Positions 3,438 through 34,833 of a stretch of DNA of 34,833 nucleotides are shown piece by piece. Under the pieces are notes generated by a model. It had not been told where the DNA came from. It was given only the letters and a program-made list of their open reading frames with translations, and ran no database searches. Position numbers and translations under genes: made by a program. The stretch is from Alistipes sp. (GTDB lineage: Bacteria; Bacteroidota; Bacteroidia; Bacteroidales; Rikenellaceae), in the NCBI GenBank assembly GCA_017647025.1, contig JAGCLL010000083.1, positions 1 through 34,833 on the forward strand, in the 5' to 3' direction. Numbering within the stretch: position 1 is the first letter of the stretch; each line of letters starts with the position of its first letter.

Positions 3438-6400
3438 ATGAAAAATTTGACAAAAATTTTCTTGGCGGTTATGGCGGGAATGTTAGCATTCTCTTGCGTT
3501 ACAGACACAATTGTTGATCCGACCATCGAACTCGGTGATGAGGTCAATGGTTCAGGTCAGTACACGCTTACTCTTTCGCTTGGCGAGAACGACAATGCGT
3601 TGCGTACCGAACTTGGCGAGAAGGTTGGCACAAACTATCCAGTGAAGTGGTGCGAGGATGATGCTGTTGCAGTAAATGGCACACCTTCGACCTCTATTGA
3701 GATTGCGAACGATGAGGGCACTGCGGCAAAGTTCACCTTTGGTGCATCGATTTCCCGTCCTTATCATGTCGTATATCCTGTGGCGGAGGGTGTCGAGGCT
3801 GTTGCTGAGGGCTGCTACCCTGTAACATTCCTCTCTACACAGCACTACACCGAGGGTACATTCTGCGAGGGTGCGGCTCCAATGTGTGGCTACGCATCAG
3901 AGGATGAGGCTTCGGCAGTTAAGATGCAGCACCTCACTTCGGTGCTTCGTTTCCTTGTTAAGGGTTCGAACACTCTTACCAGTATGACTATCACTGCCGA
4001 GAAGGGAGTGATTTCGGGTAACTACGATGTAAACTGTCAGACTGGCGAGGTTACTCCACACGACGACGCTCGCAACGACATCACCCTATCGTTTGGTGAG
4101 GGCTTGGCGCTCGGCGAGGAGGCAATCCCTGTCTATGTTACAGTTCCTGCTGGCGAGGGCGACTATGGTATGCTCGTGGTAAAACTTCGTTCGGCGGAGG
4201 GTGTTATGAGTGCTAAGGTCAACACCACCGCAAAACCTATCAAGGCAGGCGTAGTGCGTGAGTTTAATACTCCTATCGTATTTGTTCCTGGCGAGGAGAG
4301 CGACGATGCAACAGTATTCGAGATTGCAAGCGATGTTGATATGGCAACATTGAAGCAGATGATTGCAAACAACTCGTTCTACCCTTATACTACTGCTCGT
4401 GTGGTGGCAGACATTACAATGCCGGCAGATTGGACTCCAATCGAGGGCTTCACCTACACATTTGATGGTGGCAACAACGCAATCAAGGATTTGAAGGCGC
4501 CATTGTTTGGCACCGTAGAGGGCGCAACCATTCAGAATGTTAAACTCACCAATGTGGCAATCAGCGAGACTGAGCGTACAAAGGTGGGCTCACTCGTATG
4601 CTACGCTACAAATTCGACTATCTCTAACTGCTCGGCAGGGGGCGCATTGACCTATAACAATACAACTTATGATGCGAGTGCAGACTCTGGCGAGAGTGAT
4701 AATCAGGCTATCGCAGGTCTCGTGGGCGTAGCCAAGGATACTGCTGTTAGCGATTGCTTGAATAGTGTTGATGTTACAGTTAACGGTTACTACAAATCGA
4801 CTACGGGTAAAACTTATCCAAAGGTTGGCGGTGTGATTGGTCTTGCAAGAATGGCTGTGAAGCCATCTGATGTCAAGGATCTTGTTGAAATCAAGAATTG
4901 CACCAACCTCGCAACAATCACATCGAGTCAGACCAAATCGAATCTTCAACCTTGTGTTGGAGGTGTAATAGGCTTTGGTTATTGTGTGAATATGGTAAAT
5001 CTCACCAATGGTGATAAGAATGCCGTAGACACCAAAGGTGCTATAAAGTTTACGAAGGAGACATTCTGTCCATATTGGGGAGGTGTTGTTGGAATGGTAA
5101 GTCTCATTTGCGGTAACGGCCTTTACAACTACGGAAAGTTGTCGTTCGACAAAAAGTTGGAATGGAATCAGCTTGGTGGTGTTATTGGAAATACAACAAC
5201 AGGAGCACTTACAGGTGCAACACTCAAAAATGCCAAGAACTATGGTACAATTGAGGCTACTTCTGGCGCTTCTGGTACAGCCATCTATATTGGTGGTGTT
5301 ATGGGTCGTGTTCAGAATAACCTCTCTCTCTCTAATTGCGAGAACTACGGTACAGTTCGCACTGTAGCATCTTCTTCGGGCAACTATCGTGTCGGAGGTG
5401 TGTTCGGTGATGTAACAAAGGTTGACGCTACTGTTGAGAACTGTAAAAATGGTGATCCTGATAAGGCTCCTATCACTGTTTCGGTCGCTCCAAGCCAAGC
5501 ATCAACAAGCACAACAAACATCTATGTTGGAGGCATTATGGGTTATTCCGAGAGTAAGAAGATTGCAAACTGTTCTAACCACGCAAATGTTTCTCTTTCG
5601 GGCACAACCGCAGTCGCTCCATTTATCGGAGGTATCGCAGGATACACCAAGGGTGCAGATTTGGAAATTTCAGGCTGTAAGAACTACAATAACACCGACA
5701 CAGCCGAGAGCCACATCAGCATCAGTATACCGGAACTTACAAGCGAAACCATTCTCTATGTAGGAGGTTTGTTTGGACAGGTTGCAAGCAGCAAGAAGTT
5801 CACCGAATGTACCAACAACTGTGCTATTAACTTGAATGTTAATACAAAGAAGACGGATAGCAATCCATATATTGGAGGCGTTGCTGGATCTATAAATTCG
5901 CAAGAGATCAATCAATTGAAAAATGACGAGAAGGGAGATATAACCGTAAGTGGTACCACACAATCCAACTTTGCCGTAGGCGGTATTACCACAAGTTTTA
6001 GTGGTACAGCAAGTGATAGCACTCCAACTGCTGTAACAAACTGCTCGAACGCAGGTGATATCTATTGTGATGTTGTGAATGGTACAGCAGCAACAACCGA
6101 CGAGTCAGGTGCAGCAGTTGCTGCCGTAGGTGGTAGTATCTATATGAGCGGTTTGAGTTGGTCTGGACTAAACAACCGCAATATATCTAACTTCACCAAC
6201 AGCGGAAATATCACATTTAATGGCCAAATTCTTACCAACAAGGATCTCAATATCACTGGTGCTCTTTATAACACCGCAGCATCTTATACCTACTCTAACA
6301 TCAAAAACACCGGTACAATCAAGGTGGGTGCTGATGCAAAAGTTCCAGGAGTTGCTCGTGTCTCGGGTGTTTCTCGTACAATAGCGACAGGCACATTCAC

Positions 6401-8486
6401 AAATTGTGTCAACGAAGGTCAGATTATCTACGAGGCAACGGATGTAAAGGCGGTATTGCTTGGAGGTATTACTGGCGATTTGACTGGTGCAGCGACATTC
6501 TCGGGTTGCTACAATAGTGGACACATTCAGTTCAATGGTGCTGCAACCTCTACTAATGCAGCCGAGGTTTGTGTTGGCGGTGCTATTGGTAAGTTTAGTG
6601 CAAATGGAACAGCCAAGAACCTTGTGAACAAAGGCTCGGTAACCGTTGGTGGTACTTGGAAGTTTAACCCAAGTGTTGGTGGTGTTATCGGTTATGCATC
6701 TAATAATGGTGCAATCATCGAGGCGTGCCACAATGGTGATAGCACAAACAACACTCACACAGTTAAGTTGACAGCGTCGAAAGATGGTTATGTTGGAGGT
6801 ATTGTAGGTAACTTTATCGGTAAGGAGATTAAGAGTTGTACAAGTTACGGAACAGTAACCGCAGTTGGTGCTGCAAACACTATCTCTCATATGGTTGGAG
6901 GTATTGTTGGTCAGTTGATGGGTAAGGCGACAACATCAAATAATACCACAACATACACCGAGGTTAAGTTGACATCGTGCGTTAACCACGCAAATGTTAG
7001 TTTGACAGGTTCAATCAAGAACCCTTATGTTGGTGGTGTTGTAGGTAATGTTCCTAACACCTTGGCTGTGATGGCAAGTTGTAAAAATGGTGCAGAGAGC
7101 AACGCTTCGCCTGCAACCGTTTCGATTAATGCAACCGCTATGGCAGCAGCGCCATATCTTGGTGGTGTAGCGGGTTACTACAATGGCGCAAGCCTTACAT
7201 CGTGCCACAACCACGCAAATGTATTATTGGAGGGCAATGGAGGAACTACTCCGTTCGTTGGTGGTGTTGTTGGCGTTGCTGATACTGCTACTACAATTAT
7301 TGACGACTGTGATAGTTACAATAATGCCGATACCGACCAAAAGTATATTTCCGTTAAATATACAGCAACCTCAACAGACGCTTTGAAGATGGGTGGTATC
7401 GCAGGTGTAGCAAATGGTACAACTTTCAAGAATTGCGACAATAATAGTGCGGTATACTTTGCAGGTGTATTTGGTAAAGCATCTTCAGTTTCTGGCCTTG
7501 CAGGAAGTGCTGCTGCTAACGCAGGCAATGCTACCAATCAAACAGGTTTCTATAATAACCACAATGGCGCAAAGGGTAAAATTACTGTAACAAAGAAGAG
7601 CAGCGATACCGTTTTGACAGCAGGTCTTGGAATCTCGGCAATGTCATCATTCGGCTGTAAAGGTGTGGCTAATTGCAGTAATGCTGGCGATATCTACTGT
7701 GATGTAAAAACAACCGGTTCGGTTTATATCTGTGCAGTAACATGGTATGGGGGTTTGTCGGGAACAGGTTTTACAAATAGCGGAAATATCACCTTCGATG
7801 GTGATTGTGGTAACGAGTTGTTTATCACAGGTGGTGGCTATACCGTAGAAAACAAGACTTGTAACGATATGGTAAATAAAGGTAAATTTACTATTGGCAA
7901 GAATGCTATGGTGAAGAATGTACATATTGGTGGATTATGCCGTCAGGTTAAGGGCACAACAGTGTTTAACAACTGCCGCAATGAGGGCAATGTTGTTGTG
8001 GAGACTACCGACGAAATAGCACAATTACGCATTGGCGGTATTGCTTCTCAAACAAGTGGCGCAGTGTCAAGCACACTTTGTGGTGGCGCAAACGGCTTTG
8101 AGAACACTGGTAATATCACTTGTACAAGCCCAGTTCCTGCCAATCACAATATCGGAGGTGTGATTGGTTATGTTGGACACAATATCACCATTCAGAATGC
8201 GACTGTATCGGGTACTTATACCGCTATCGGTTATACCAATATAGGTAAGATTATGGGCGTTTCTCGCACAGATGCTATCAAGGCTACAAACTGCGTGATC
8301 GCAGGTTCGATTGATAAGGGTTATTATGGCGATTATCAAGATGACTTTGGCAATGAAAAAACTGGTTGGACTACTGATCTTGTACCTATCTCTGCTGACA
8401 ACTTCTTCAATTACATCTACGCTACTGCTGTAACTCCTGAGGTGGCTGCGGCTGATAATTGTACTTGTCCTACACAGGCTCAATAA
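3438..8486 (+). CDS. Giant GLUG-repeat surface lipoprotein, adhesin-like
   Basis: 1682 residues. The N terminus is a lipoprotein signal, basic then hydrophobic, with lipobox LAFSC and Cys20; acidic residues soon after the Cys are compatible with export to the cell surface. Residues about 30-290 resemble the N-terminal beta-rich domain common in Bacteroidota surface lipoproteins (fimbrillin-like; uncertain). From about residue 310 to 1600 there are more than 20 units of roughly 50 residues of the form (V/I)GG(V/I/L)xG...CxNxGxV, i.e. GLUG-type repeats expected to form a long beta-solenoid. A block of about 545 residues is duplicated: CKNG at 669 and 1215, CSNAGDIYCDV at 869 and 1413. The tail ends DNCTCPTQAQ with no obvious sorting domain. 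An adhesive or matrix role is inferred. A tiny ORF follows 32 bp downstream. Confidence 0.85.
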   Translation: MKNLTKIFLAVMAGMLAFSCVTDTIVDPTIELGDEVNGSGQYTLTLSLGENDNALRTELGEKVGTNYPVKWCEDDAVAVNGTPSTSIEIANDEGTAAKFTFGASISRPYHVVYPVAEGVEAVAEGCYPVTFLSTQHYTEGTFCEGAAPMCGYASEDEASAVKMQHLTSVLRFLVKGSNTLTSMTITAEKGVISGNYDVNCQTGEVTPHDDARNDITLSFGEGLALGEEAIPVYVTVPAGEGDYGMLVVKLRSAEGVMSAKVNTTAKPIKAGVVREFNTPIVFVPGEESDDATVFEIASDVDMATLKQMIANNSFYPYTTARVVADITMPADWTPIEGFTYTFDGGNNAIKDLKAPLFGTVEGATIQNVKLTNVAISETERTKVGSLVCYATNSTISNCSAGGALTYNNTTYDASADSGESDNQAIAGLVGVAKDTAVSDCLNSVDVTVNGYYKSTTGKTYPKVGGVIGLARMAVKPSDVKDLVEIKNCTNLATITSSQTKSNLQPCVGGVIGFGYCVNMVNLTNGDKNAVDTKGAIKFTKETFCPYWGGVVGMVSLICGNGLYNYGKLSFDKKLEWNQLGGVIGNTTTGALTGATLKNAKNYGTIEATSGASGTAIYIGGVMGRVQNNLSLSNCENYGTVRTVASSSGNYRVGGVFGDVTKVDATVENCKNGDPDKAPITVSVAPSQASTSTTNIYVGGIMGYSESKKIANCSNHANVSLSGTTAVAPFIGGIAGYTKGADLEISGCKNYNNTDTAESHISISIPELTSETILYVGGLFGQVASSKKFTECTNNCAINLNVNTKKTDSNPYIGGVAGSINSQEINQLKNDEKGDITVSGTTQSNFAVGGITTSFSGTASDSTPTAVTNCSNAGDIYCDVVNGTAATTDESGAAVAAVGGSIYMSGLSWSGLNNRNISNFTNSGNITFNGQILTNKDLNITGALYNTAASYTYSNIKNTGTIKVGADAKVPGVARVSGVSRTIATGTFTNCVNEGQIIYEATDVKAVLLGGITGDLTGAATFSGCYNSGHIQFNGAATSTNAAEVCVGGAIGKFSANGTAKNLVNKGSVTVGGTWKFNPSVGGVIGYASNNGAIIEACHNGDSTNNTHTVKLTASKDGYVGGIVGNFIGKEIKSCTSYGTVTAVGAANTISHMVGGIVGQLMGKATTSNNTTTYTEVKLTSCVNHANVSLTGSIKNPYVGGVVGNVPNTLAVMASCKNGAESNASPATVSINATAMAAAPYLGGVAGYYNGASLTSCHNHANVLLEGNGGTTPFVGGVVGVADTATTIIDDCDSYNNADTDQKYISVKYTATSTDALKMGGIAGVANGTTFKNCDNNSAVYFAGVFGKASSVSGLAGSAAANAGNATNQTGFYNNHNGAKGKITVTKKSSDTVLTAGLGISAMSSFGCKGVANCSNAGDIYCDVKTTGSVYICAVTWYGGLSGTGFTNSGNITFDGDCGNELFITGGGYTVENKTCNDMVNKGKFTIGKNAMVKNVHIGGLCRQVKGTTVFNNCRNEGNVVVETTDEIAQLRIGGIASQTSGAVSSTLCGGANGFENTGNITCTSPVPANHNIGGVIGYVGHNITIQNATVSGTYTAIGYTNIGKIMGVSRTDAIKATNCVIAGSIDKGYYGDYQDDFGNEKTGWTTDLVPISADNFFNYIYATAVTPEVAAADNCTCPTQAQ

Positions 8487-8518: not shown

Positions 8519-8653
8519 ATGACTATGAAAAAAGATATTTTGTTGGGCTATTCTGCTCCTGAATTTGAGATTTATGATGTAGCCGTAGAGTGTGGCTACG
8601 GAGGAAGCGTAGGTCTTCCAGGCTTTGGCGAGGACGAAGATACTCTCGTCTAA
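8519..8653 (+). CDS. Tiny ORF, copy A of a repeated small-peptide family
   Basis: 44 codons from ATG 8519, or 42 from the in-frame ATG at 8525 (MKK..., which I consider equally likely). The product opens with a basic MKK, then LLGYSAPEFEIYDVAVE, then a Gly-rich acidic tail GYGGSVGLPGFGEDEDTLV. It has no signal peptide or membrane segment. I believe it is a real gene because a second copy at the right end of the window shares 20 of its last 28 residues, including the ending LPGFG..EDTL, and because it sits between the large lipoprotein and a strong terminator. The function is unknown. Small proteins opening with a similar Tyr-x-Ala-Pro-x-x-Glu pattern occur in Bacteroidota near surface-protein genes, from memory. 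A secreted or modified peptide is one option, but no modification enzyme lies nearby. Confidence 0.65.
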   Translation: MTMKKDILLGYSAPEFEIYDVAVECGYGGSVGLPGFGEDEDTLV

Positions 8654-8680
8654 AATCTACTAAACATAACCCTCTTATTG

Positions 8681-8716
8681 CAAGGGACAACCCAAAAAGG
8701 TTGTCCCTTGTTTCTT
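8681..8716 (+). terminator. Terminator after tiny ORF A
   Basis: A 12-bp perfect stem CAAGGGACAACC (8681-8692) / GGTTGTCCCTTG (8699-8710) with loop CAAAAA, followed by TTTCTT. The same stem, base for base, follows tiny ORF B at 34698-34726 on the other strand. Confidence 0.85.
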
Positions 8717-34692: not shown

Positions 34693-34726
34693 AAAAACAA
34701 GGGACAACCGCAGTGGTTGTCCCTTG
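34693..34726 (-). terminator. Terminator after tiny ORF B, same stem as after ORF A
   Basis: On the minus strand CAAGGGACAACC (34726-34715), loop ACTGC, GGTTGTCCCTTG (34709-34698), then TTTTT. The 12-bp stem is identical to that at 8681-8710; only the loop differs. Confidence 0.88.
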
Positions 34727-34744
34727 CAATAAGAGGGTTATAGT

Positions 34745-34833
34745 TTAGCCGAGTGTATCCTCCTCCCAGCCGAAGCCAGGGAGAGCAACACTTGTGCCGT
34801 AACCGCCTTCAACGGCTACCTCGAAAATCTCAA
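34745..34833 (-). CDS. Tiny ORF, copy B of the repeated small-peptide family (5' end outside window)
   Basis: 28 complete codons remain before TAA (34747-34745); the start lies beyond the right edge. The tail GYGTSVALPGFGWEEDTLG aligns without gaps to copy A (8519-8653): 20 of 28 residues identical, most other changes conservative (Y/F, D/E, G/A). It precedes a terminator with the same stem as copy A and lies upstream of mnmA. Whether a large lipoprotein gene also precedes it cannot be seen. Confidence 0.65.
   Translation of the reverse strand, partial: EIFEVAVEGGYGTSVALPGFGWEEDTLG

Follow-up and report, generated by a model that had tools for sequence, protein, structure and literature searches.

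The small ORF at positions 8519-8653 of the window (the whole stretch of DNA analysed here, 34,833 nucleotides) is best explained as a precursor gene from a Bacteroidota branch of RiPPs of the LPP type, the linear polyphosphorylated peptides described from the Paenibacillus alginolyticus lpp cluster by Popov et al. (2026, PMC13381572). In this branch, to which we assign the gene with a probability of about 0.77, the precursors are dispersed and each is paired with a surface protein. This gut bacterium has about a dozen genes of the kind, each beside a surface-protein gene wherever the neighbourhood is readable. The features of the window on which the argument draws are the following.

3438-8486, + strand: 1682-aa surface lipoprotein, the partner of copy A, with a fimbrillin-like N-terminal domain (~280 aa) followed by GLUG / M26-N-like repeats
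8519-8653, + strand: precursor peptide gene, copy A, 44 aa, reading MTMKKDILLGYSAPEFEIYDVAVECGYGGSVGLPGFGEDEDTLV; alternative start at 8525
8519-8599, + strand: predicted leader, residues 1-27, with a YxxPx[VIL]-type motif (Y11, P14, here F16) and E24-x-G26-Y27
8600-8650, + strand: predicted core of copy A, GGSVGLPGFGEDEDTLV, the leader/core cut being placed by analogy with LPP
8606-8608, + strand: conserved Ser, core residue 3 (alignment column of 118 members), putative phosphorylation site
8680-8711, + strand: intrinsic-terminator-like hairpin, 13 bp, folding z = -5.2
34697-34727, - strand: hairpin behind the second copy, folding z = -3.8
34748-34831, - strand (stop 34745-34747): second precursor copy, 3' 28 codons only, running off the contig end
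34748-34798, - strand: core predicted for the second copy from its alignment with copy A, GTSVALPGFGWEEDTLG

The peptide gene and its copies

The window corresponds to a complete contig (G000:C81, 34833 b) from a MAG of 2.04 Mb that is 87% complete and consists of 219 contigs. The giant lipoprotein carries a lipobox-like Cys at residue 20, as judged by eye, and matches Pfam Peptidase_M26_N over the cut-off (E 8.5e-10) and Glug below its cut-off. An earlier note on this DNA had described a small ORF directly behind the giant gene, followed by a strong hairpin, and this is indeed the arrangement found: 32 nt lie between the stop of the 1682-aa ORF and copy A (38 nt to the second ATG), and the hairpin follows, although it is absent from the list of a simple terminator scan. 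The second copy agrees with copy A at 20 of 28 residues, and a 27-nt block, ATAACCCTCTTATTGCAAGGGACAACC, is identical in both, as had also been noticed. The terminator had been called invariant; hairpins do stand behind both copies of the window, but another copy of the same genome (C23:8597) has a different stem, and the copies of related genomes differ there.

The conservation goes beyond chance, with eight matches at E < 1e-6 in the own genome and weaker relatives besides: four divergent ones (on C6, C61, C133 and C135, E 4e-5 to 0.02) and two contig ends at which the gene breaks off when 11 identical residues have been read (E 1.7 each). At least eight copies of the genome belong to the arrangement seen in the window, with the peptide behind a giant GLUG lipoprotein (type I); five are complete, and there are five contig-end fragments (three 5' ends, two 3' ends), some of which may be the two ends of one gene. 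The contig of the window and four others of the same MAG (C83, C157, C48, C50) all end inside the peptide gene, probably because the copies are near-identical, and the family's gene numbers may be undercounted in short-read assemblies.

The frame is conserved under purifying selection, as paralogues keep their protein while the codons diverge. In one related genome (G182), ten distinct copies encode the same tail protein, RGYGDSVLLPGFGTEDDELVY, at a tail pS of 0.43 and a dN/dS of 0.02; the tail gives a dN/dS of 0.05 in G138 and of 0.45, on few changes, in G137, and the seven distinct copies of the own genome give 0.17. Since gene conversion alone would wipe out synonymous differences too, protein identity combined with synonymous divergence points to selection. 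Between genomes the tail evolves faster than the leader (pN 0.28-0.39 versus 0.15-0.22). The earlier note had left a choice between a secreted or processed peptide family and a mobile 3' cassette. A cassette of peptide and terminator that moves or recombines, with no selection on the peptide, would account for the nearly identical stretches that recur at many places in the own genome and for the contigs that break inside the gene, but the copies are coupled to a surface-protein gene, their flanks are unlike, and their synonymous sites have diverged where the protein is the same, so that we consider this reading most improbable. The processed peptide family, on the other hand, is well supported by the purifying selection together with the leader motif, the partner genes and the co-occurrence described below, and points to a RiPP precursor; that the peptide is secreted we infer from the ABC exporter of the linked clusters. 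In several G182 copies (L062, L064, L067) a palindromic, REP/MITE-like-looking element stands between the giant gene and the peptide gene, and this insertion widens the gap from ~38 to ~107-324 nt.

The family and its surface-protein partners

Further copies, whose existence in related genomes had been left to be checked, form a large family: a profile search with the peptide returns 129 of 200 genomes from the bacterial family of the window (E <= 0.1), 13 of 295 genomes of the order (E <= 0.01) and, in a phylum-wide draw, 2 of 247 genomes, namely the own genome and one from another order of the class. Among named genomes, the matches come from Rikenellaceae and Alistipes sp. MAGs of ruminant origin, and the window's genus would accordingly be Alistipes. 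Four genomes studied closely hold 10-20 precursor matches each, the others listed 1-15.

We aligned 118 unique peptides from regions picked by match score, one of them a contig-end fragment. Their consensus from the Tyr onwards is YxxPx[VIL]E[VI]xE[VI]xVExG[FYI][AG]xS, followed by a variable tail that is rich in acidic residues (27% Asp/Glu, 2% Lys/Arg) and has a median length of 16 residues after the Ser. YxxP is present in 118/118 members, a count that is partly circular as the HMM seeds contain YxxP; at the columns matching E24 and G26 of copy A, Glu is found in 116 and Gly in 112 members, and the column of core position 3 holds Ser in 102/118. By the inferred cut, the first residue of the core would be Ala in 72/118 and Gly in 18/118. 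The information content is 3.50 bits at the Ser, drops to 0.80 one column later and amounts to 0.49-0.83 across the nine columns after the Ser. Leader and tail act as separate modules: in one genome (G102), the first 81 nt of three precursors (to GFAAS) are identical but for 1 nt, after which the tails are unrelated, and the partners likewise resemble each other over their initial ~35 residues (~48 in two of them) before they diverge. At type I loci there is one core sequence per genome in G182 and G138, nearly one in G137 and two in the own genome, and the sequence differs from genome to genome. A core that is common within a genome and different between genomes could serve as a strain-specific surface tag.

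Next to the peptides lie genes of surface proteins. Besides type I, there is a type II in which the peptide stands in front of the lipoprotein, usually within about 100 nt, and the partners of both types have the ~280-aa N-terminal domain in common (hhalign 99.7%, E 4.8e-26). Of the 53 peptides in four genomes of the window's genus, 43 have a lipoprotein with this domain as their neighbour (two or three of these assignments span 330-410 nt, one true gap being 378 nt), six more lie at most 46 nt behind a long same-strand ORF that starts less than 100 nt from a contig end, and the remaining four are themselves at contig ends, such that all 49 readable copies adjoin a surface-protein gene. Based on the short gaps, peptide and lipoprotein are probably co-transcribed. 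Among 32 type II partners, Pfam finds Mfa_like_1 in 5 and LRR_5 in 16. In other families, T9SS type A cargo can be found upstream of the peptide: 5 of the 9 upstream neighbours that were scanned match TIGR04183 over the cut-off. T9SS was also considered as a common denominator in the window's genus and rejected, as TIGR04183 gives no match at E <= 0.001 in five genomes, the own included. Seen from the lipoproteins, 46 of the 88 with the domain in the four genomes have no assigned peptide, at least five of these having one that is cut by a contig end; at 32 domain-lipoprotein loci lacking an assigned peptide, no family-like ORF was seen by eye. Many fimbrillin-domain lipoproteins stand without a visible companion peptide, for instance on C55, C165 and C21 of the own genome. 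Searches of solved structures with the lipoprotein domain, the peptide and the kinase-like profile gave nothing usable.

Within genomes, the tail similarity of type II peptides tracks the similarity of their partners (82 pairs, rho 0.30, reached by 2 of 500 permutations), and leader similarity does not (rho about -0.05). Between genomes the correlation is weaker, with a tail-partner rho of 0.15 in the four genomes (13/500) and 0.28 in all (0/500). This is modest evidence that the core matches its partner within genomes; taken with the pairing, it suggests that the mature peptide is most likely a companion of the surface protein, as a ligand or a decoration. The same correlation, the pairing with surface-protein genes and the lack of a signal peptide visible by eye would also suit an unmodified small cytosolic protein that aids the making or export of the partner lipoprotein, as a chaperone or as a translational or dosage regulator. 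Such a helper leaves unexplained the YxxP motif, the co-occurrence with PqqD and the clusters with kinase, protease and exporter, and the peptide can stand on either side of its partner, which speaks against a role in cis; we find such a helper unlikely.

Enzyme clusters and the PqqD-like RRE

Of the 11 genomes read outside the family, 4 (G218, G427, G455, G493) have the peptide in a cluster with a PqqD gene, and three of the four also have an HprK-like kinase, a signal-peptidase-like protease, a nucleotidyltransferase and an ABC exporter. The operon of G218, from another family, reads peptide, HprK-like kinase, signal-peptidase-like protease, PqqD, NTP_transf_5 and ABC exporter (L342). The gene set of G427 (L361) is the same, except that a lipoprotein gene separates peptide and kinase, and in G455 (L359) PqqD, nucleotidyltransferase, kinase, capsule-export-like genes, peptide, lipoprotein, protease and exporter are found. 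In G493, from another order, the peptide is accompanied by an Mfa_like_1 lipoprotein, PqqD and the nucleotidyltransferase (L358). Within the window's genus, a protease-kinase-ABC-PqqD cluster is divergent from a peptide-lipoprotein pair in G125 (L322). No cluster gene lies near the peptide in 16 of the 20 regions, or 7 of the 11 genomes, read outside the family; linkage in at least 4 of 20 has a chance probability of 5e-5, assuming two PqqD genes per 3.3 Mb. Nucleotidyltransferase and ABC exporter are both present in G218, G427, G455 and G002, the exporter without the transferase in G125, G015, G037, G080 and G083, and the transferase without the exporter in G493; of the seven type A cluster regions that were read in the window's family, one has the transferase. 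The Ser/His/Asp of the protease are invariant in 8 aligned sequences and the P-loop and DD of the kinase in 9, and the HprK-like protein matches curated kinase models weakly (15.9-19 bits). In the 377 kb (18%) of the own, 87%-complete MAG that were covered, PqqD and other ABC ATPases are present, and kinase, protease and nucleotidyltransferase were not found. A route through a double-glycine leader and a C39 exporter was also tried and rejected, PF03412 being absent from 5/5 peptide genomes, the own included.

Judged by their gene content, G218, G427 and G455 carry LPP-type clusters; the putative assignment of the window copy to LPP rests on its membership in the family, the leader motif and the presence of PqqD. 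By analogy, a discrete PqqD-like RRE would bind the leader at YxxPx[VIL], the HprK-like kinase would phosphorylate the conserved Ser at core position 3, and the signal-peptidase-I-like serine protease would cut after E-x-G-F/Y to yield an acidic core of, in the median, 19 residues (in the window GGSVGLPGFGEDEDTLV). The nucleotidyltransferase, where present, may modify the core further, and the MsbA-like ABC exporter would send it out. In the four closely studied genomes the precursors are satellites scattered over the genome, probably transcribed together with their surface lipoprotein genes, and in other families some stand behind T9SS cargo. Tentatively, and with the odds somewhat against so complete a scheme, one RRE-centred machine could phosphorylate, cut and export at least 12 linear cores, each of them a partner-matched ligand or decoration of an adhesin-like lipoprotein or T9SS cargo protein.

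The link between the peptides and an RRE is also seen in their distribution. PqqD (PF05402) is present in 5/5 peptide-bearing genomes and 0/3 peptide-less ones; in the same 200 genomes of the family, 114 have both, 15 the peptide only, 4 PqqD only and 67 neither (p 4e-33, ignoring phylogeny), and 11 of the 15 peptide-only genomes are weak peptide matches (E > 0.02). With a peptide threshold of E <= 0.01 for all, the counts become 109/4/9/78 (p 9e-40, likewise ignoring phylogeny). Within the genus, PqqD is found in 85/89 peptide genomes and in 0/20 among the peptide-less genomes listed. The single PqqD of the own genome (L286 6586-6852, 50.9 bits against a cut-off of 23.4) lies in a TonB-receptor locus on contig C117, a setting found for 24 of the genus's 37 distinct PqqD rows. 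This location, with no RiPP enzyme nearby except in G125, raises the possibility that the genus PqqD serves the TonB operon, that the peptides use something else and that the co-occurrence is a phylogenetic coincidence. The distribution over 200 genomes and within the genus speaks against this, as do the genome G125, which carries both kinds of PqqD on one contig, and a PqqD tree, built on few columns and with long branches and a bootstrap that had not settled. There the own PqqD shares a group with the cluster RREs of G125, G218 and G427, apart from the capsule-locus RREs (support 93/88, at a fork under the star threshold). The RREs linked to the peptides of G455 and G493 lie outside this group. 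We judge a coincidence improbable, and retain the reading in which the PqqD protein is the RRE of the peptides.

TonB-type PqqD loci (for example L286 6586-9641, L287, L290, L291, L328, L335 and L339) often contain a His-rich protein of ~140 aa and an HMA-like protein. A second, diverged PqqD occurs with NTP_transf_5 and an HprK-like kinase inside capsule/exopolysaccharide-like clusters (L323, L325, L327, L329, L359), and a further one stands beside radical SAM-looking genes (L289, G102:C3), possibly another RiPP system.

An RRE of this kind also brings lasso peptides to mind, in which a B1 protein (here PqqD) would read the YxxP leader, B2 would cut and an Asn-synthetase-like cyclase would close the ring. 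The only PDB match of the RRE profile is TfuB1 (6jx3), which we take to be a lasso RRE, and the best NCBIfam models for the PqqD proteins are lasso PqqD chaperones, below their cut-off. The leader motif is the same as well: according to Popov et al. (PMC13381572), discrete RREs of lasso peptides bind [Y/W]xxPx[LVIFA]. Yet a scan of cluster proteins that covered the G427 operon and most of that of G218 revealed no lasso cyclase or B2, nor was either recognised by eye elsewhere; a signal-peptidase-like protease takes the place of B2, and the inferred cores begin with Ala four times as often as with Gly. A lasso precursor is therefore a distinctly remote prospect, and the LPP type remains the preferred reading.

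Comparison with known RiPP systems

The statement of the earlier note that no named family has this peptide is true for Pfam, NCBIfam and PHROGs, none of which has a match for it; the gene set of the linked clusters, however, matches the LPP family published in 2026. In that paper, the LPP leader reads YxxPxVLxHQxIxFETxxS before a variable C-terminus, the core starts with AQS, S3 carries phosphates and the protease needs the RRE; its authors describe LPP as restricted to Bacillota, with final product and role unknown (PMC13381572). The likeness covers, in the linked clusters, a discrete RRE, an HprK-like kinase, a putative leader protease that is archaeal-type signal-peptidase-I-like, an NTP transferase and an MsbA-like exporter, with no cyclase needed, and, in the precursor, a conserved YxxP leader with a variable C-terminus and an A-x-S core start; clusters often lying in capsule loci are listed as a further common feature. 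In the literature searched, PMC13381572 is the only paper found to describe the gene set, and the word 'bacteroid' is absent from its text. The two systems differ in five respects: phylum, LPP being reported only from Bacillota and the present family belonging to Bacteroidota (Bacteroidia); precursor number, with 1-3 per LPP cluster against the 10-20 per genome of our four genomes; placement, mostly away from the enzymes here; the end of the leader, F-E-T in LPP and E-x-G-F/Y here; and the surface-protein gene beside each precursor, unlike in LPP.

Clusters of the paeninodin type, which produce phosphorylated lasso peptides, also have an ABC exporter. They likewise combine RRE, HprK-like kinase and NTP transferase, according to Popov et al. 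(PMC13381572). The present family is unlike them in that no cyclase or B2 was seen, the motif has Y instead of W, and the protease is signal-peptidase-like. The radical-SAM / PCAT clusters of Bacteroidales are RiPP systems of the same order, but use peptidase-containing exporters and radical SAM enzymes, unlike those of the present family; 'signal peptidase' and 'nucleotidyl' do not occur in the accessible portions of that survey (PMC10352776).

The neighbours of the precursors belong in part to the fimbrillin-like (Mfa_like_1) and the T9SS type A cargo proteins. We know of no small companion peptide for either group, and none was listed in the literature searched. The family offers a likely identity for unannotated genes of 40-60 residues beside surface-protein genes. 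It also places in gut Bacteroidota a system closely similar to the LPP RiPPs, which had been regarded as restricted to Bacillota and had no known role, and its many natural cores per genome, each with an obvious candidate partner, make both the function and the leader/core rules testable.
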